A stretch of DNA of 64,000 nucleotides from Verrucomicrobiia bacterium (GTDB lineage: Bacteria; Verrucomicrobiota; Verrucomicrobiia; Verrucomicrobiales; DEV007): the NCBI GenBank assembly GCA_030425385.1, contig JAUIAH010000012.1, positions 64,001 to 128,000 on the forward strand, read 5' to 3'. The notes below the pieces were generated by a model. It saw only the letters and a list, made by a program, of their open reading frames with translations, was not told the origin of the DNA and searched no databases. The position numbers and the translations under genes were made by a program. The first letter of the stretch is position 1; the number at the start of each line of letters is the position of its first letter. This document shows positions 14,837-27,424 of the stretch, piece by piece.

Positions 14837-16429
14837 GTGATCCCCACTTGTCGTTCCCTCTTCCTCCAGTCTGCGCTCGCCTGGCTTTGCCTCGCTCCGG
14901 CCTGGGCGGAGCCGACTCCCACGGATCTTGGGGCTTACCTCGATCGGGTGCTCCGCTACAATGAGCAGCTCCAGGTCCAGGCCATGGACTACGAAATCAG
15001 TCGTCAGGTGGTCGTTGGGGCACGTGCAGCATTCGAACCAGAGTTGGTGGTGCGCGGTCAATACGACGACACCTTGCGGCCGAACAACGCTGAGGAATTG
15101 CGCAATCTTGGGGGCCTTCCCTTCTTCAAACAGCGTCAGATGCTTTATTCCGCGGCCGTGGAGACGCTTACCGCGACGGGTGCTCGGACGCGCGTGGGAC
15201 TGGATGTTCGCCACATCAACAACAATCTGCAGCCCTTCCGAGCGCTCGATCGCGAATGGAGCAGCTTCCTCGGGCTGAGTTTTGTCCAACCCTTGCTCAA
15301 AGGGGCAGGAAGGAATGTGAATCTCGCTGCCTTACGCGTCGCCGCATTGGAATCTGATCAGGCTTTTCAGGAGTATCGCCGTCAAACGATGGTGATCTTG
15401 ATAGGAGCCGAGATCGCCTATTGGAATCTCTTCTACGCTCAGGAACAGCAGCGCTTCTATGAGGAATCTCTTCGAACGGTGGGTGTGTTAGCCAATGATA
15501 TTGCCGAGCAGTACGCTGCGGGCAGGGCGACCAAGCTTGATGCTCTCAACGCTGAAGTTGCCTTGAAAGATCGGGAGGCGCGTTTGTCCGTCGCCCAACA
15601 AGCTCTCCAGGAATCACTCAATACGGCCAAGGGATTCACGGGCGAGGAGAGTGCTCCTGTTAGGGCTACTGCTCCTCCAGTGGCCGCCACCCTCGCCATG
15701 GATGTGGAGAGCTGTTTCGAAGCGGCACTACGTTCCAACCCTGAATACCTCGTGCGTGAGCGGCAGATTGCCATTGAGGGGTTGCGCATGGCGGTGGCCG
15801 AGAACCAGCGTAGGCCGTCGTTGGATCTGTCAGGAAGCCTTGGATTTGCTGGTCTGTCTGAGACCTTTGGAGATGCCATGTCAGACGTGGGCAATGCCCG
15901 CCATCCCACCTGGTCATTGGGAGTGGAACTGCGCATTCCGTTAGGTGGGGGCACGAAAGGCAAGAGTGATTTGGAAACGGCGCGCCTTCGTCGTTCGCAA
16001 GCGATCCGCCAACTTGGGGCGCTGCGCAGCCAGATGCGCGCGGCTGTGGAGAACGCGATCTTCAAGGTGCGCTCCGGGCACGCGAATGTCGCTAGTTTCT
16101 CTGAGTCCCGCAAATTGACGGAGACGCTGCTCGATACCGAACTGGAGAAGGTTGGCGCGGGAACCTCGTCTCCCGGCAAGGTCTTGGAGGCTGAGCAAGC
16201 GGTCTTCGAGGCGCGCAATGTGGAGTTGGAGAATCGGCTTGCCCTGCAGCGCGCTCTGTTAGAGCTGGATGTCGTCATGGGGGTGGTGTTAGAGAAGCGT
16301 GGTATTGATGCCTCGCAATCGCAGATGGCACAGAAGACTGCGGCCATGGTAGAGGTGAACAAGATTCCTCCAGCACAATTGGAAACCTATCGTCAAGCTG
16401 TCGAACCCATCATTGCCGAGAACCCATGA
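14837..16429 (+). CDS. TolC-family outer-membrane efflux protein
   Basis: A 530-aa exported protein beginning at GTG with a clear signal peptide (FLQSALAWLCLAPAWAEP). Two related halves of long alpha-helical hairpins, each headed by an amphipathic segment (LDRVLRYNEQLQVQAMDYEISRQ and CFEAALRSNPEYLVRERQ) and containing LSFVQPLLKG and LGVELRIPLGGG strands, identify the TolC fold: a beta-barrel in the outer membrane and a periplasmic tunnel. The stop overlaps the ATG of the next gene (ATGA at 16426-16429), so it is the first gene of an operon with two HlyD-type proteins. The 174-bp divergent gap upstream is AT-rich near 14770-14815 and probably holds the promoter. Confidence 0.93.
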   Translation: MIPTCRSLFLQSALAWLCLAPAWAEPTPTDLGAYLDRVLRYNEQLQVQAMDYEISRQVVVGARAAFEPELVVRGQYDDTLRPNNAEELRNLGGLPFFKQRQMLYSAAVETLTATGARTRVGLDVRHINNNLQPFRALDREWSSFLGLSFVQPLLKGAGRNVNLAALRVAALESDQAFQEYRRQTMVILIGAEIAYWNLFYAQEQQRFYEESLRTVGVLANDIAEQYAAGRATKLDALNAEVALKDREARLSVAQQALQESLNTAKGFTGEESAPVRATAPPVAATLAMDVESCFEAALRSNPEYLVRERQIAIEGLRMAVAENQRRPSLDLSGSLGFAGLSETFGDAMSDVGNARHPTWSLGVELRIPLGGGTKGKSDLETARLRRSQAIRQLGALRSQMRAAVENAIFKVRSGHANVASFSESRKLTETLLDTELEKVGAGTSSPGKVLEAEQAVFEARNVELENRLALQRALLELDVVMGVVLEKRGIDASQSQMAQKTAAMVEVNKIPPAQLETYRQAVEPIIAENP

Positions 16430-17151
16430 AGTGGCCCGCCTTTATCCTGACATTCTTCCTTCTCAATCATGTGAGCCTGGCTCAGGAAGGTGGTGGTGCG
16501 GCCTACAGCGGTATCACGGAACCAGCTGCGGATGCGACCCTGAGCTTTCCGGTCTCAGGTGTCCTCGCCCGTTGCGCGTTCCGTGAAGGGGCTTTTGTCC
16601 GGGCCGGAGAGGTGATTTGCGAACTGCGACACGAAGCCCAAAGACTTGAAGTCGAGCGTCGACGTCTGATCCTTACAAATGCGCGAACGGATCTCGATCG
16701 GACGCAACGTCTCTTCGATAAGACCGGTTCTGTCAGCGAGGAAGAACTCGACGAGAAGCGCGCCACAGTACACGTTGCGGAGGCGGAACTCGCCATCGCG
16801 GAGGAGCAATTGAAGCAGCGGCGTCTGGTCGCCCCCTTCGACGGACTCATTGCCGATCACCATGGTTTGGAGGTGGGTGAGGGCGCTGAGATTCTTCAGC
16901 CCATTGTGCGTCTGGTAGACACGCAACGCGGTGTCTTTGTGTGCAATCTGCCGGCGGCCGAAGCCACGCAGCTGCGAGCAGATAGCAATGCCGTCATCAC
17001 GGTGGGAGAGATCCAGTGTCCTGGCACGGTGATCTTTGTTTCACCTGTCATTGATCCCTCTAGCGGATTGTTGAAAGTGAAGGTCGCTTTTGACAATGCC
17101 GGAGGGCAAGTCATCCCGGGAGCCGCGGGTCAGGTGCGCTTTTCCAAATGA
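16426..17151 (+). CDS. Short periplasmic adaptor (HlyD/RND membrane-fusion type)
   Basis: A 241-aa exported adaptor: signal peptide (FILTFFLLNHVSLAQ), a split lipoyl-like domain (SFPVSGVLARCAFREGAFVRAGEVICEL and RLVAPFDGLIADHHGLEVGEGAEI), a short helical hairpin (about 70-125, EVERRRLILTNARTDLDRT) and a beta-barrel ending GAAGQVRFSK. It lacks the C-terminal membrane-proximal domain of full RND adaptors, so it is at the small end of the family. It overlaps tolC by four bases upstream and the GAF-HlyD gene by four bases downstream. It should bridge the TolC tunnel to an inner-membrane component. Confidence 0.9.
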   Translation: MKWPAFILTFFLLNHVSLAQEGGGAAYSGITEPAADATLSFPVSGVLARCAFREGAFVRAGEVICELRHEAQRLEVERRRLILTNARTDLDRTQRLFDKTGSVSEEELDEKRATVHVAEAELAIAEEQLKQRRLVAPFDGLIADHHGLEVGEGAEILQPIVRLVDTQRGVFVCNLPAAEATQLRADSNAVITVGEIQCPGTVIFVSPVIDPSSGLLKVKVAFDNAGGQVIPGAAGQVRFSK

Positions 17152-19016
17152 GTGCTTCGGAAGAGCACATCGAGATCCCGGCAGACCTCGGCGAGATCGC
17201 GGAGCAATTGGATCGGGTGGTGCAGACGGAGCAGCCCGTCGCTGCTTTCTGGGAAGAGTTGTTAGAGAGTTATTGCCTCCTTTGCGGTGCCTCACGCTCC
17301 ATCCTCCTTGTGCGCAAGTTCGGTGAGACGGCCTGGCGCAAGGCGGCCTATCATGAACACCAGTCAGGGGCACCGCAAGTGCCGCCGGTCCCTCAGGGCA
17401 AGTTTCAGCAGTGGGCGGCTCGCGCTGCGGCGCAGGTTCTGGAATCTCCCAAGGCGTTGGTGCCGGTGACGGAACACGGCCCCACCACGTTTCTCATCGG
17501 CACCCGGCTGCGCTTGCTGCAAGAGGACCACACCTGTGCCGCCCTCTTCCTCGTCGAGGGTGATCCCAGCACCCTGCGGAGCCGGATCGAACGCTTGCAA
17601 TTGGTATCGACCGCTCCAAGAACCTATCAAGCACACCAAGCTCGGGGGCAGCACTTGCAAGAGCAGGACACGTTCGGCAAAGTGCTCGATCTGCTCGTGC
17701 CCACTAATGAGGCGGATCGCTTTCTCGCGGCCGCCATGGCCTTGTGCAATGAGACGGCGACGGCCTACGGCTGTGAACGTGTCAGTCTCGGTTGGTGGGA
17801 GCGGGGATTTATCCGTCTGAAAGCGATTAGTCGGATGGAGAAGTTCAACCGCCAGATGGCAGCGGCGCAGGCCCTGGAAGCGGCCATGGATGAAGCGCTG
17901 GATCAGAACGCGGCGGTGGCTTGGCCCGCATTGGACGCGTCGATGATTGCCCGGGATCACGAGAAATTCTGTCAAACGCACCAAGTGGGACATGTCCTCT
18001 CAACGCCGTTGCGGGTAGGGGATTCGCCCATTGCCGTCCTCAGTTGCGAACGCGAGTCCGGTCCATTCACCGAGCTAGAACAGCAGCAACTACGCTTGCT
18101 CGCAGATCTCGCTGCGCCGCGTCTTGTCGATCTCCACCATCGCGACCGCTGGTGGGGGGCGCGCGCCGCCGACAGCGCGAAACAACGCTGCGCCTGGTTG
18201 CTCGGACCGCAGAATACCTGGGCCAAGATTCTCGCGCTTTTCTTAATGGTCTTGTTAGCTGTGCTGATCTTCGTCAAGGTTCCCTATCGGGTGGAGGGGG
18301 ATTTCATCGTGCAAAGCGAGGAGGTTGCCTTTCTCACATCACCCTTTGATAGTTACATTGAGGAAGTGCATCGGGAAGCCCCGGCTGAGGTGACTGAAGG
18401 GGAGCTTCTTCTTACTCTGCGGACAGACGAACTCCGTCTTCAGGAGGCTGCGGAACTCGCCAACGTTGCCGCCGCGAGCCGGCAGGCCGAACGTGCCCGC
18501 GCCGTCAATCAACTTGCGGATATGCGGATTGCCTTGGCCCAGGTACAGCAAGCGGAAGCCAGGCTCGCCATCGTGCGGGATCAGTTAGGCCAGGCAGAGA
18601 TCCGAGCGCCGTTCGACGCTGTCATCGTGGAGGGCGATCTCATGGAGCTTCGTGGCAAACCCATCGAGAAAGGAAGCCCACTCTTCAAACTAGCACAATT
18701 AGACAAGTTGAGCGTGGAGGCCAAGATCGATGAACGTGACGTGCACGAGGTGGCTCTCCAACAGATGGGTGAGATTGCCTTTGTGAGTCAACCCAAGGAT
18801 CATTACCCGATTCAAGTCACTCAGATGCAAGCGGCAGCTTTTCCAGAAGGCGAGGGGAATGTCTTTCGTTTAAAGGGCGTCTTTCAGACAACACCGGAAG
18901 CGTGGTTCCGCCCAGGGATGACAGGTGTGGCCAAGATCGATGTCGGCAAGCGGCGAATCATGTGGATCCTGGGCCATCGCACGGTCGATTTCTTTCGCAT
19001 GTGGCTTTGGTGGTGA
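17148..19016 (+). CDS. GAF-domain/transmembrane/HlyD-like hybrid protein
   Basis: A 622-aa protein with an unusual arrangement. The N-terminal 355 residues are cytosolic, with no signal peptide. They contain a GAF-like sensor fold from about 180 to 335 (DRFLAAAMALCNETATAYGCERVSLG ... VLSTPLRVGDSPIAVLSCER). One transmembrane helix (about 358-382, ILALFLMVLLAVLIFVKVP) leads to a periplasmic HlyD adaptor with lipoyl halves (YIEEVHREAPAEVTEGELL, GQAEIRAPFDAVIVEGDL) and an alpha hairpin of about 60 residues. It ends in RTVDFFRMWLWW, an amphipathic tail seen in adaptors that sit beside a membrane pump. The four-base overlap couples it to the short adaptor. It could let a cytosolic signal gate the export channel; that is inference. 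Confidence 0.85.
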   Translation: MSASEEHIEIPADLGEIAEQLDRVVQTEQPVAAFWEELLESYCLLCGASRSILLVRKFGETAWRKAAYHEHQSGAPQVPPVPQGKFQQWAARAAAQVLESPKALVPVTEHGPTTFLIGTRLRLLQEDHTCAALFLVEGDPSTLRSRIERLQLVSTAPRTYQAHQARGQHLQEQDTFGKVLDLLVPTNEADRFLAAAMALCNETATAYGCERVSLGWWERGFIRLKAISRMEKFNRQMAAAQALEAAMDEALDQNAAVAWPALDASMIARDHEKFCQTHQVGHVLSTPLRVGDSPIAVLSCERESGPFTELEQQQLRLLADLAAPRLVDLHHRDRWWGARAADSAKQRCAWLLGPQNTWAKILALFLMVLLAVLIFVKVPYRVEGDFIVQSEEVAFLTSPFDSYIEEVHREAPAEVTEGELLLTLRTDELRLQEAAELANVAAASRQAERARAVNQLADMRIALAQVQQAEARLAIVRDQLGQAEIRAPFDAVIVEGDLMELRGKPIEKGSPLFKLAQLDKLSVEAKIDERDVHEVALQQMGEIAFVSQPKDHYPIQVTQMQAAAFPEGEGNVFRLKGVFQTTPEAWFRPGMTGVAKIDVGKRRIMWILGHRTVDFFRMWLWW

Positions 19017-19138
19017 TGTGCGATGCAGGCGTTTCTCGCCACTGAGGAAATTGGATCAGGGCAGTGGACGCGCCAGGCGTGCGTGCTACCATTCTCGCCA
19101 GGAACATGCTCCCTCCGATGTTCCAGGAACCCGCCCCT

Positions 19139-21010
19139 ATGTATCAGCATTTGAAGACTCCGCGCATCGTCGTTGGGATCGCTTGCCTACTCAGCCTCAT
19201 TGGAGGGCTTCAGGCACAGACGTCCGATCCTACCCTCATGCTCCCAGAAGGCGTGCCCGATCCCTTGGAGCGGACAAATCGCATGATCTGGGAGTTCAAT
19301 CGTGTCGCCAATCGCTACCTGGGCCGTCCCGTGGGGCGTGCCTATCGCTTTCTCGTCCGCCAACCCGTGAGGAAGCGCGTGAGCAATGTCGCCTCCAATC
19401 TCACTTATCCAAAGCGGTTCGTGAACAACACGCTTACGGGCAATTGGAGCGGGGCCCGTGATGAGACCTATCGCTTTCTCCTCAATTCCACCGTGGGTGT
19501 GGGCGGGGTCTTCCATGCGAGTGATCACTGGGATATTCCACAGTCGAACCTCGGCTTTGGAGACACGTTGAGTCACTACGGAATGGGACCCGGCATCTAT
19601 CTCGTGCTTCCCCTCTTGGGACCGACCAATGTGCGTGATGGGGTGGGACGTGTCGGTGATCGCGCGCTCGATCCGCTCGCCTACTTCCCTGATCTTCGCT
19701 ACGCTCGCACCGCGTTTGGGGTGAACACCTTCTCTGATCGCATCGAAACCATCGACCGCTTCACGGAATCGGAGCCAGATGCCTATCAGAACACAAAGGC
19801 AATCTACGACTACCGCCAGCGTCGTGATGCCCCGCGCCTCTTGGGAGGGCCGCAACATGAGCCTTCTTTGGAAACGATGAAGGTCATCTATGTGCGTTTG
19901 CGAGATCCGAAGTTTCCCGAGCGTCGTGAGGATGCGACGATTAAACTGCAATTCTCCGGGAAACGTCTCGACTACACCTATTGGCTGCAGAAGCATCCGG
20001 CTCCTGTCGTTTATGTCTTGCCGGGCTTGGCGGCACACCGGCTTTCTTCTCCTAGCATTGCACTTGCCGAGATGGCGTACCGGAAGGGCCTCAGCGTCGT
20101 GGTTCTCAGTAGCGCTTACCACTCCGAGTTCATTCACGCTGCGTCCAGTACGGCGCTACCTGGACACACACCGACAGATTCCATGGATGTGCATCGCGCG
20201 ATCTTGGAGATCGATCGTCAACTGCGTGACCGCCATCGAGGTCGCCTGGGTAAACGTGCTGTCATGGGATATTCCATGGGGGCCTTTCACGCGCTAACCA
20301 TCGCCGCGGCGGAACAGCCTGCTTATCCAGAAACTGGATTCTGGCGTTATATCGCCATCAGCCCCCCGGTGCGGCTCACCTACGCAGCCGATCAGTTAGA
20401 TTCTTTCTACAATGCGCCGTTGGCTTGGCCCGAGAATGAACGTCTCGCGCTCATTGATAACACATTCCTGAAAGCAGTGCGATTGAGCAGTGGTCCTCCG
20501 CCAAATCCCCAATCAGCACCTCCTTTCAATAGCATCGAGTCTCGCTTCCTCGTGGGGTATGTCTTCCGTACCGCGCTGAGAGATATTATCTTCGCCAGCC
20601 AATCGCTCAACAACCTCGGCATCTTAGAAACGCCCTTGCGTGACGGTCATCGGCAAGAGGCCTATGCCGAGATCGCGCAGTATTCCTTTAAAGACTACTT
20701 TGAACAATTCGCGGCTCGCTACTTCTACGCCCAAGACATGATTCGTAGCCAGCGCCAGTTGGGTCAGGTCAATGACCTTCGCAACTATGCGGGGGCTCTA
20801 GCAAACAACCCACGAACGCGCGTCATTATCAATCGCAACGACTTCATCACGAGTCGCAATGATATCCGCTGGCTGCAGCGCACCTTTCGTGGCGATCGCC
20901 TCACGATGTTCTCAAAAGGTGGGCACTTGGGAAATCTTGGTAGTGATCAGGTTCGCCAAGCCGTGGAAGCACATTTAGAAGACCTCTTGGATATCACGTC
21001 CTCGAAATAG
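19139..21010 (+). CDS. MlaA/VacJ phospholipid-transport domain fused to an alpha/beta hydrolase
   Basis: A 623-aa exported protein. Residues 35-230 match MlaA: DPLERTNRMIWEFNRVANRYLGR, RPVGRAYRFLV, NLTYPKRFVNN, NSTVGVGG, FGDTLSHYGMGPGIYLVLPLLGP. MlaA extracts phospholipid from the outer leaflet of the outer membrane. Residues about 270-623 are an alpha/beta hydrolase with oxyanion region VVYVLPGLAAH, nucleophile G-Y-S379-M-G, acid D568 (INRNDF) and base H596 (GGHLG). The signal peptide (IACLLSLIGGLQAQ) lacks a good lipobox, unlike normal lipidated MlaA. ATG 19139 is preferred for that signal; ATGs at 19106 and 19118 are alternatives. No mlaBCDEF genes are near. A phospholipase or acyltransferase working on MlaA-delivered lipid is the obvious hypothesis. 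Confidence 0.88.
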   Translation: MYQHLKTPRIVVGIACLLSLIGGLQAQTSDPTLMLPEGVPDPLERTNRMIWEFNRVANRYLGRPVGRAYRFLVRQPVRKRVSNVASNLTYPKRFVNNTLTGNWSGARDETYRFLLNSTVGVGGVFHASDHWDIPQSNLGFGDTLSHYGMGPGIYLVLPLLGPTNVRDGVGRVGDRALDPLAYFPDLRYARTAFGVNTFSDRIETIDRFTESEPDAYQNTKAIYDYRQRRDAPRLLGGPQHEPSLETMKVIYVRLRDPKFPERREDATIKLQFSGKRLDYTYWLQKHPAPVVYVLPGLAAHRLSSPSIALAEMAYRKGLSVVVLSSAYHSEFIHAASSTALPGHTPTDSMDVHRAILEIDRQLRDRHRGRLGKRAVMGYSMGAFHALTIAAAEQPAYPETGFWRYIAISPPVRLTYAADQLDSFYNAPLAWPENERLALIDNTFLKAVRLSSGPPPNPQSAPPFNSIESRFLVGYVFRTALRDIIFASQSLNNLGILETPLRDGHRQEAYAEIAQYSFKDYFEQFAARYFYAQDMIRSQRQLGQVNDLRNYAGALANNPRTRVIINRNDFITSRNDIRWLQRTFRGDRLTMFSKGGHLGNLGSDQVRQAVEAHLEDLLDITSSK

Positions 21011-24861: not shown

Positions 24862-26229
24862 TCAGTCGGCACGAAGGGCTTTCGCCGCGTCTAATCGAGC
24901 CACTGCCCAAGCTGGGGGGATCGCCGCGACGGTGCAAGCGATGATCGCCCCTATCGCAATTCCGAGAATGCTACCGGGGATGATCTCGACCGGGAGCTCT
25001 GACAAGCCGTAAACATTCTGCGGAAAGGGATCGGCTCCGAATTTGCCAATGACCGCGCGAACCGTCTCCAACTGGTGCAAGAAGAGCAAGCCAAGGCCCA
25101 CGCCAAAGAGCACCCCACAGAGTCCCACAATCTGGCCTTGATGCACAAAGATCCTAACAATTTGCGACGTTTGAGCACCCACCGCCTTGAGCACCCCGAT
25201 TTCGCGTCGCTTCTGAACGGTGGTCACAATGATAGTGACGGTAACGCAGAAGGTGGCCACGATGACGATGATAAAAAGAATGACAGACATCATGCTGCGC
25301 TCCATGCGGATGGCCTCCAGGCGCGGGCGATTCTGTTCGAACCACGTGATGGGATTCCATCCCAACGGAAGGAGGGCATTGCTTTGCAAGCGGTCCTTGA
25401 TCTCTTTGACGCGATAGGGGTCTTCCACAAAGACGGCCAAGCCGTGCACTTGATCATATTCGTCTTTGCCAAATAATTCTTGCCCAATGAAGAGGGAGGG
25501 GATGATGAACTGTTGATAGAGGGGGGTGCTCACAATACCACTCACGCGGAGCTCCGTCGGAGTGGTGAGCGATTCCAAGTCGTCGAAGAAGGCATTGGCA
25601 TCGTCGCGGTCTTCCTCTGGCAATTCACGGTAATCGCGAATCTTGTCCAACACCTTGCGAGCCGTCACCGGAGAAAGCACAGAAATCACATCGCCCACTC
25701 GCAGCGGCCCGCCGTCCACGGGATCGTTGAAGCTGTCTGCAAGGGCCTGACTGACAATGACACTGGGATAGTGCTCGGTCGCTGAGATGTAATCTTCAAG
25801 ATCGAGTTCACCCGCTACAAGCATGTCTTGCTCTTTCAATTCCTTCAATTGCTGATCACCAGGCAGGATGGCTTTCATCAATGGGTTCTGCACTTGATTC
25901 CCTTTCTGCACCATGACATAGCCAGCCATGTAGGGAGATTGAGAAACGATGCCTGGCACTTTCTCCAAGGCTTCACCGATTTCGCGGTAAGTGGGCACCT
26001 CGGGGTCGGGAATGCCATCAGTTTGATCCCATACGGAAATATGAGGATCGAATCCTAAGAGTTTCCTTTGAAACTCATTCTCGAATCCTTTCATGACACT
26101 GAGCACGACGATCATCACGGCCACCCCTAGGCACACGCCCACGATGGTGAGCAAGTTGATGATGATCATGAAGAGTCCTTTCGGAATCAGATAGCGCTTT
26201 GCTAGGAAATAGCTAAAGTTTTTACTCAT
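24862..26229 (-). CDS. LolC/LolE-type lipoprotein-releasing ABC permease
   Basis: A 455-aa inner-membrane protein with the MacB-like layout: first helix (MIIINLLTIVGVCLGVAVMIVVLSVMKGFENEFQRK), a large periplasmic domain (about 65-320), then three helices of the FtsX domain (ILFIIVIVATFCVTVTIIVTT, IVGLCGVLFGVGLGLLFLHQ, ILGIAIGAIIACTVAAIPPAWAVARLDAAKALR). LolCDE extracts lipoproteins from the inner membrane for transfer to LolA; the ATPase LolD is not in this window. VQKRREIGVLKAVGA and PAWAVARLDAAKALR are family signatures. Start ATG 26229 gives the standard MSKNFSYFLAKRYL beginning; the open frame before it is not credible. The short 58-bp gap to the trans-sulfuration gene suggests read-through. 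Confidence 0.9.
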   Translation of the reverse strand: MSKNFSYFLAKRYLIPKGLFMIIINLLTIVGVCLGVAVMIVVLSVMKGFENEFQRKLLGFDPHISVWDQTDGIPDPEVPTYREIGEALEKVPGIVSQSPYMAGYVMVQKGNQVQNPLMKAILPGDQQLKELKEQDMLVAGELDLEDYISATEHYPSVIVSQALADSFNDPVDGGPLRVGDVISVLSPVTARKVLDKIRDYRELPEEDRDDANAFFDDLESLTTPTELRVSGIVSTPLYQQFIIPSLFIGQELFGKDEYDQVHGLAVFVEDPYRVKEIKDRLQSNALLPLGWNPITWFEQNRPRLEAIRMERSMMSVILFIIVIVATFCVTVTIIVTTVQKRREIGVLKAVGAQTSQIVRIFVHQGQIVGLCGVLFGVGLGLLFLHQLETVRAVIGKFGADPFPQNVYGLSELPVEIIPGSILGIAIGAIIACTVAAIPPAWAVARLDAAKALRAD

Positions 26230-26287
26230 GAGACGCCTTGGACGGGGACACCACTGGCCGTGTTCAATCGCAGGTGCAACCGATTGT

Positions 26288-27424
26288 TCAGACGCTCTCT
26301 TGAGACCACGCCATGTCCACATCGGCAAGGAGGTCATCAATGTGCTCGATGCCAATGGAGAAGCGCACCAGCGAGTCAGTGATGCCCACGGCTTCCCGCG
26401 TCTCCTTGGGAACGCTGGCGTGGGTCATGCTCGCGGGATGGCACACGAGGGATTCGATCCCGCCCAGGCTCTCAGCTAAGGTGAAATAACGGAGCCGATC
26501 GAGGAAGGCCTTCGTGCGATCTAAAGACCAGCCGAAGTCCGCCGTGACGATTCCTGAGCCGCCAGTCATCTGCTGCTTCGCAAGGGCGTGCTGCGGATGC
26601 GAGGGCAGAAAGGGGTAGCGCACCGTCGCCTCCGGATGGCGCTCTTCCACAAAGGTGGCGAAGGCGAGAGCGTTAGAGGCGTGGCGCTCCATGCGCAGCG
26701 CCTGAGTCTTCACCCCACGGGCGATCAGCCAGGAATCGAAGGGCGACGGCTGGAGTCCCAGCGCTTTCTGCGCAAAGATCATCTTGTCGTGCCACACGGG
26801 TGCATTCGTGCAAACGACGCCTCCAAGACAATCGGAATGCCCATTGCTGTACTTAGTGGTGCTCAACAATGACACATCTGCGCCCAGTGCCAGAGGTTTC
26901 TGAAAGTAGCTAGATGCGAAAGTGTTATCAACAATCAGGCTACTCCCAGCGGCTTTCGCCAAATCGGCAACCCAAGCAATATCAATGATCTTGAGTAGGG
27001 GATTCGTCGGCGACTCGATCCAGACGAGGGCCGGCTGTTTCTCTGTGATCACACGGCCACTCGCTTCTTGCGTCAAGTCGACGTATTCCACCGAAACGCC
27101 GAACTTGGCGAAGACTTGGGCGAAGAGGCGGAACGTGCATCCGTAGATATTCTCTTCCGCGACCACAAGGTCGCCTTGCTTCAGCGTGGAAACGACCGCC
27201 GTGATGGCCGAGACTCCGCTGGCAAAGACCGTGGCGTGGGCGGCTCCTTCTAGGCGGGCTAACTGATCTCCTAAGTTGTTGAAGTTAGGATTTCCCGATC
27301 GGGTGTAGTCGAACCCATCGGCATTGCCATGCGCAAAGGTCGACGTGAGATAGACCGGGGGAATGACTGCCCCGGTATCACCTTGATAACCCTGGCCTTC
27401 GTGAATCGCATCAGTTTCGAACAC
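26288..27424 (-). CDS. PLP-dependent trans-sulfuration enzyme (cystathionine gamma-synthase/lyase family)
   Basis: A 378-aa cytosolic Cys/Met-metabolism PLP enzyme. The cofactor lysine is K191 in STTKYSNGHSD; other marks are YTRSGNPNFNNL, FASGVSAITA (PLP phosphate site), YGCTFRLF, ESPTNPLLKIIDI and the aspartate in IVDNTFASSYFQKPL that binds the pyridine nitrogen. C-terminal ESLGGIESLVCHPASMTHAS and IRFSIGIEH-like VRFSIGIEHIDDLL are standard. Whether it is a gamma-synthase, gamma-lyase or beta-lyase cannot be separated by eye. No SAM or T-box riboswitch is visible; only 6 bp lie between its start and the DUF3500 stop. Confidence 0.92.
   Translation of the reverse strand: MFETDAIHEGQGYQGDTGAVIPPVYLTSTFAHGNADGFDYTRSGNPNFNNLGDQLARLEGAAHATVFASGVSAITAVVSTLKQGDLVVAEENIYGCTFRLFAQVFAKFGVSVEYVDLTQEASGRVITEKQPALVWIESPTNPLLKIIDIAWVADLAKAAGSSLIVDNTFASSYFQKPLALGADVSLLSTTKYSNGHSDCLGGVVCTNAPVWHDKMIFAQKALGLQPSPFDSWLIARGVKTQALRMERHASNALAFATFVEERHPEATVRYPFLPSHPQHALAKQQMTGGSGIVTADFGWSLDRTKAFLDRLRYFTLAESLGGIESLVCHPASMTHASVPKETREAVGITDSLVRFSIGIEHIDDLLADVDMAWSQESV

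Follow-up and report, generated by a model that had tools for sequence, protein, structure and literature searches.

In Escherichia coli, the removal and the destruction of stray phospholipid are divided between the MlaA-MlaC-MlaFEDB system and PldA. Work on MlaA has treated it as the point where lipid enters a transport chain, and how and in which direction that chain runs has been disputed. One study describes the recruitment of MlaC by the C-terminal tail helix of E. coli MlaA and places the docking site of MlaC at the channel base (PMC10719372). No description of an MlaA-hydrolase fusion was found in the open-access full text searched, and the available parts of PMC10665443 (an Mla survey that mapped the components), PMC10719372, and PMC12436622 did not mention a hydrolase-fused MlaA. 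The component families are known, while the fusion architecture and its exchange with MlaC appear undescribed in the open-access literature searched. The window, meaning the whole 64,000-nt stretch of Verrucomicrobiia DNA that was analysed, carries a gene of this kind.

Gene structure and the MlaA half

The MlaA-hydrolase fusion gene was located at 19139..21010 on the forward strand (+) as a single ORF of 623 aa, stop included. An in-frame GTG at 19064 is an alternative start that would add 25 residues to the protein. An assembly or frame artefact was ruled out as the source of the fusion by 85 loci with one open frame. The protein is exported, with a signal sequence at about residues 1-26 (19139..19216, +); by inspection, its residues (...LLSLIGGLQA/QTS) are of the signal peptidase I type. 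No convincing lipobox was found in the window copy, as the preliminary description had also stated, while one was present in many relatives; these calls were made by eye without a predictor, and a lipoprotein signal is no condition of the Pfam MlaA family.

The MlaA domain covered residues 40-228 (19256..19822, +) and was recognised by sequence, with a fold match in addition. The full PF04333 domain was matched at E 5.7e-53 with 179.9 bits (cut-off 25) over profile positions 2-193 of 195, which bore out the earlier assignment of the N-terminal half to MlaA. Solved MlaA structures 5nuo, 5nuq, and 8i8r were matched at E 1e-18 to 1e-19 in phmmer, and Foldseek aligned this half with 5nuo at TM 0.70 over about 195 columns, although model confidence for this half was low (pLDDT about 50-75), unlike that for the hydrolase half of the same full-length model. 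A very short linker (19823..19843, +) followed. By extrapolation from alignments, it lies about where the MlaC-recruiting tail starts in E. coli MlaA, so the hydrolase would begin at about that point. The charge of the MlaA tail past the domain boundary was uninformative, because the extrapolated boundary often falls beyond the end of the protein.

Fold and catalytic triad of the hydrolase half

The C-terminal domain spanned residues 236-620 (19844..20998, +). Pfam returned only matches below cut-offs for this half (Abhydrolase_6, 22.1 bits vs 26.3), and the PldA profile (PF02253) had no match in the window protein. The AlphaFold2 (AF2) domain model reached a mean pLDDT of 88.5 and a pTM of 0.90, with Z of about 21 to solved esterases and a thioesterase. 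The thioesterase DcsB (Z 21.4, 3.0 A over 243 residues) and the Pf2001 esterase (Z 21.2, 3.3 A over 240 residues) were tied as neighbours. On the strength of this model, the C-terminal half is a clear alpha/beta hydrolase despite its sub-cut-off Pfam scores.

The catalytic serine, Ser379, sits in a GYSMG nucleophile elbow (20273..20275, +) after the strand at residues 370-378 and was conserved in 100 of 100 aligned hydrolase domains. Asp568 (20840..20842, +) follows the strand at 560-565 and His596, within GGHLG (20924..20926, +), the strand at 588-591; where the column was present, these were conserved in 97 of 98 (one Glu) and 98 of 98 domains, respectively. G296, G377, G381, G594, and G598 were nearly invariant in the same 100 domains. 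In the model, the order Ser-Asp-His and the strand-end positions are canonical. The triad numbering of the preliminary description was therefore correct, and its expectation that the triad should assemble in a predicted structure agreed with a high-confidence fold in which the three residues lie at the expected strand ends. A degenerate hydrolase was ruled out by the invariant triad. A mostly helical insertion at residues 413-555 (20375..20803, +), defined by DSSP of the models, may serve as a lid over the active site.

Fold matches were spread over esterases, lipases, thioesterases, acyltransferases, and peptidases, and included the phospholipase 6i8w (Foldseek E 3.6e-7, 15% identity). Since this fold is common to many enzyme classes, the assignment of a substrate rests on context.

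Distribution of fused and split forms

MlaA was present in 153 of 388 Verrucomicrobiota genomes. The hydrolase family was present in 106 of the 388, all of which (106/106) also had MlaA; the hydrolase search first scored at most 4 candidates per genome, and unlinked paralogues may escape it. The two domains were fused in about 94 of these genomes and encoded by abutting genes in 10, while 2 were ambiguous at contig ends. The loci compared comprised 85 fused (the window and 84 others), 12 split, 54 MlaA-only, and 3 hydrolase-only, one locus tallied as MlaA-only (L203, genome G269) being actually a fusion interrupted by a contig end.

All 10 split pairs of Verrucomicrobiota had mlaA followed by the hydrolase gene in the same direction, most of them at most 40 nt apart or overlapping, with the overlap of a few inflated by longest-ORF starts. 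Nearly all split hydrolases started with their own signal peptide. The domains are separate genes in some relatives, as the preliminary description had considered, but these genes are adjacent and co-directional, which supports a functional link.

The fusion was also found in 10 of 149 genomes from the phylum of the Planctomycetota-labelled genome, so that the earlier proposal to look for it elsewhere returned a widespread architecture. The phylum of the Binatia-labelled genome had 1 fused case in 99 genomes, in that MAG only, and this may be a matter of binning. Two further genomes found via the Binatia-labelled genome (G600 and G562, loci L145 and L146) had the reversed order, hydrolase then mlaA, with a lipoprotein MlaA and a hydrolase carrying its own signal peptide; these are probably an independent pairing. 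Remote relatives of the hydrolase occurred without MlaA in two Planctomycetota-group genomes (L160 and L161).

Phylogeny of the two domains

The MlaA-domain tree (142 rows) placed stand-alone copies on one side of a branch with an SH-aLRT of 86. Exceptions to this division were three long-branch or distant copies, the fused L156 and the split L145 and L146, as well as the contig-truncated fusion L203. The coupled MlaA copies formed two groups: group A, with split copies at its base and 34 fused copies nested inside, and group B, fused, which contained the window copy and Planctomycetota. The hydrolase tree recovered the same two groups. The median linker was 54 aa in group A vs 3 aa in group B. 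The different linker medians, together with split genes around the base of group A in both trees, point to a probable repeated origin of the fusion. Two fusion events are the simplest reading; both trees were unrooted and made by a quick method, and fission is therefore a possible alternative.

Neighbourhood of the fusion gene

Genes for TolC, HlyD, and GAF-HlyD proteins were located at 14837-19016, ending about 120 nt upstream of the fusion gene. The preliminary description had suggested that they may form one envelope lipid system with the fusion and had asked whether the fusion always follows them. At E 1e-6, homologues of the three were absent from all other loci, whether fused, split, or stand-alone, in a search that included 66 fused or split loci with at least 3 kb on both sides. 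Linkage to the trio was rejected on this ground, with no relative showing it, and the single lipid system was not upheld. Co-transcription of the trio and the fusion is possible in the window species and is no family property. The TolC, HlyD-type adaptor, and GAF/HlyD fusion genes follow one another, and no gene for an inner-membrane transporter adjoins them; it is unusual for a periplasmic adaptor to carry a GAF sensor domain. An FtsX/MacB-type permease of the LolC/E kind is encoded near the fusion gene at 24862-26355 on the reverse strand (-).

Exchange with MlaC

MlaC (PF05494) was sought genome-wide in 80 genomes. Of 23 genomes whose only MlaA was stand-alone, 22 had it (the exception being G272), against 0 of 56 with hydrolase-coupled MlaA only, the window genome included; MlaC is thus lost with the coupled form, with the reservation that a strongly diverged MlaC could escape a profile search. 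Fisher's exact test gave 1.2e-18 for this exchange, uncorrected for kinship, and since the MlaC pattern, like that of PldA below, follows lineages, the P values overstate independence. Genome G173 had both types of MlaA (L103 and L104), with MlaC adjoining the stand-alone copy in an mla operon and the fusion separate, so that nature provides both types for comparison in one organism.

The same exchange was seen at the level of loci. A family-specific MlaC profile found mlaC in the flanks of 49 of 54 MlaA-only loci and had no match in any fused or split locus. Stand-alone mlaA genes belonged to mla operons: mlaC was the immediate neighbour in 40 loci and mlaD lay close by in 34, and the identities of these neighbours were checked. 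This exchange, together with the hydrolase at the probable position of the MlaC-recruiting tail, leads to the reading of the hydrolase as a substitute for MlaC.

Two side observations were made on stand-alone loci. The MlaA of L025, from G272, lies on a long branch, and its genome has PldA and no MlaC. A gene for an MMPL/RND-like membrane protein adjoins mlaA and mlaC in L010, L015, L018, L020, L023, L027, L162, L201, and L202, an Mla variant beside which mlaEFD was not seen.

MlaEFD and PldA

MlaE was found in 361 of 388 genomes. The window genome had one MlaE and one MlaD; their genes form one row in the order mlaE, mlaF, mlaD, the last encoding 367 aa, far from the fusion. This row (L053, 6386-9392) is without mlaC, and its 375-aa mlaE ORF carries a long N-terminal extension of STAS/MlaB-like appearance. 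Only in two related genomes (L105 and L106) did the fusion lie near mlaEFD. Since MlaE is kept in most fusion genomes, products or lipids might still reach MlaEFD.

Nine fusion genomes had neither MlaE nor MCE/MlaD (G031, G058, G097, G144, G165, G201, G014, G233, and G332). Of these, the six named first group together as one clade of fusions (support 100 in the MlaA tree, 99 in the hydrolase tree), and MlaD was present in their relatives G016 and G189. Because the six fall in one clade, the absence there is unlikely to come from assembly gaps, and MlaEFD is not required for the fusion to be maintained. Three MlaA-only genomes also lacked both MlaE and MlaD. An enrichment of MlaE loss in fusion genomes was not borne out overall (9 of 106 vs at least 3 of 47 MlaA-only), with only the six-genome clade phylogenetically coherent.

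PldA was present in 28 of 388 genomes, none of which had the hydrolase (Fisher 1.1e-4), and was absent (PF02253) from the window genome. Its concentration in one family makes the exclusion of PldA and hydrolase suggestive only.

Proposed mechanism and alternatives

The reading that we favour, and hold to be fairly probable, is that of an outer-membrane module whose serine hydrolase has taken the place of MlaC as the partner of MlaA and degrades stray phospholipid in place. The MlaA half would reside in the outer membrane and, as in E. coli, let mislocalised outer-leaflet phospholipid through to its periplasmic face. On arrival, the lipid would encounter the tethered or co-encoded alpha/beta hydrolase and not an MlaC shuttle. 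The triad Ser379-Asp568-His596 would then cleave an acyl ester, as a phospholipase A or a lysophospholipase does, so that the stray lipid would be degraded locally and removal and destruction would be combined in one protein. Degradation on site by an attached hydrolase had been put forward in the preliminary description; it gains from the coupling of the domains, the adjacent split form, the invariant triad, and the absence of MlaC and PldA. The analysis shows the architecture, the invariant triad, the coupling in fused and split form, the loss of MlaC, and the dispensability of MlaE and MlaD; a lipid-conducting MlaA half, phospholipid as the substrate, and the acyl ester as the bond cut are inferred.

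The hydrolase could instead be an accessory that clears lysolipids or trims cargo while the MlaA half feeds a long, periplasm-spanning MlaD without MlaC. Retention of MlaE by most fusion genomes agrees with this, as does the MlaC-free row with a long mlaD in the window genome, and long MlaD has been proposed as an envelope bridge in other bacteria in the available part of PMC10665443. The distance of the fusion from mlaEFD at all loci other than L105 and L106 and the six-genome clade that retains the fusion without MlaE and MlaD make it unlikely, and the same part of that survey reports PVC MlaD proteins without the C-terminal barrel. It is similarly improbable that the triad transfers an acyl chain of outer-leaflet phospholipid to another envelope molecule such as lipid A, a lipoprotein, or glycerol in the manner of PagP: the acetyltransferase 2vat, which has this fold, ranked first in Foldseek for the full model and a helical lid probably covers the active site, but esterases, lipases, and hydrolases outnumbered transferases among the fold matches and no acceptor-binding feature was identified.

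That the MlaA half is just an outer-membrane anchor or address tag for a hydrolase acting on an unrelated ester, for example of a polysaccharide or nutrient, is more doubtful still. Identity of this half to E. coli MlaA is modest and the remote relatives in L160 and L161 do without MlaA, as such a role would allow. The strict exchange with MlaC and the conservation of MlaA positions across fusions nevertheless suggest that lipid passage is retained, and a plain lipobox, which many fusions have too, would be a cheaper anchor.

Local degradation by an MlaA-hydrolase module would amount to a second, MlaC-independent route to outer-membrane asymmetry, separate from retrograde transport, which Verrucomicrobiota and some Planctomycetota would have put together on more than one occasion; we give this wider proposal an even chance. 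Should phospholipid prove to be the substrate of the fused hydrolase, MlaA would have to deliver lipid periplasmically without MlaC or an ABC transporter, and bacteria with an enzyme as the partner of MlaA offer a clean natural test of the role of MlaA itself. The proposal also suggests a way in which Verrucomicrobiota and Planctomycetota, mostly without PldA and often without MlaC, could clear stray lipid, and the fusion could be a single-protein tool to read or alter outer-membrane asymmetry.

Comparison with known systems

The fusion protein shares with E. coli MlaA (VacJ, PF04333) the whole MlaA domain by sequence and, at low model confidence, probably the fold, a ring of helices around a central channel; it is exported, with a lipoprotein form in many relatives. 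It differs in the C-terminal hydrolase at about the MlaC-recruiting tail, in a genome without MlaC, and in a gene outside the mla operon. Set against the canonical MlaABCDEF pathway, the window genome has MlaE and MlaD and is without the MlaC shuttle (PF05494). PldA (PF02253) has Ser/His chemistry in common with the fusion, together with the proposed destruction of outer-leaflet phospholipid; however, PldA is a beta-barrel, whereas the enzyme of the fusion has a soluble alpha/beta hydrolase fold, and the two were never together in 388 genomes. PlaF, a membrane phospholipase A (PDB 6i8w), has the alpha/beta hydrolase fold and triad in common with the hydrolase half, to which it is 15% identical, but it is without an MlaA domain and works in another setting. 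The minimal MlaEFD of Veillonella parvula, as covered in the available part of PMC10665443, shares an Mla inner-membrane core without MlaC and a long MlaD; Veillonella is also without MlaA, whereas the Verrucomicrobiota fusion genomes keep MlaA, joined to a hydrolase.
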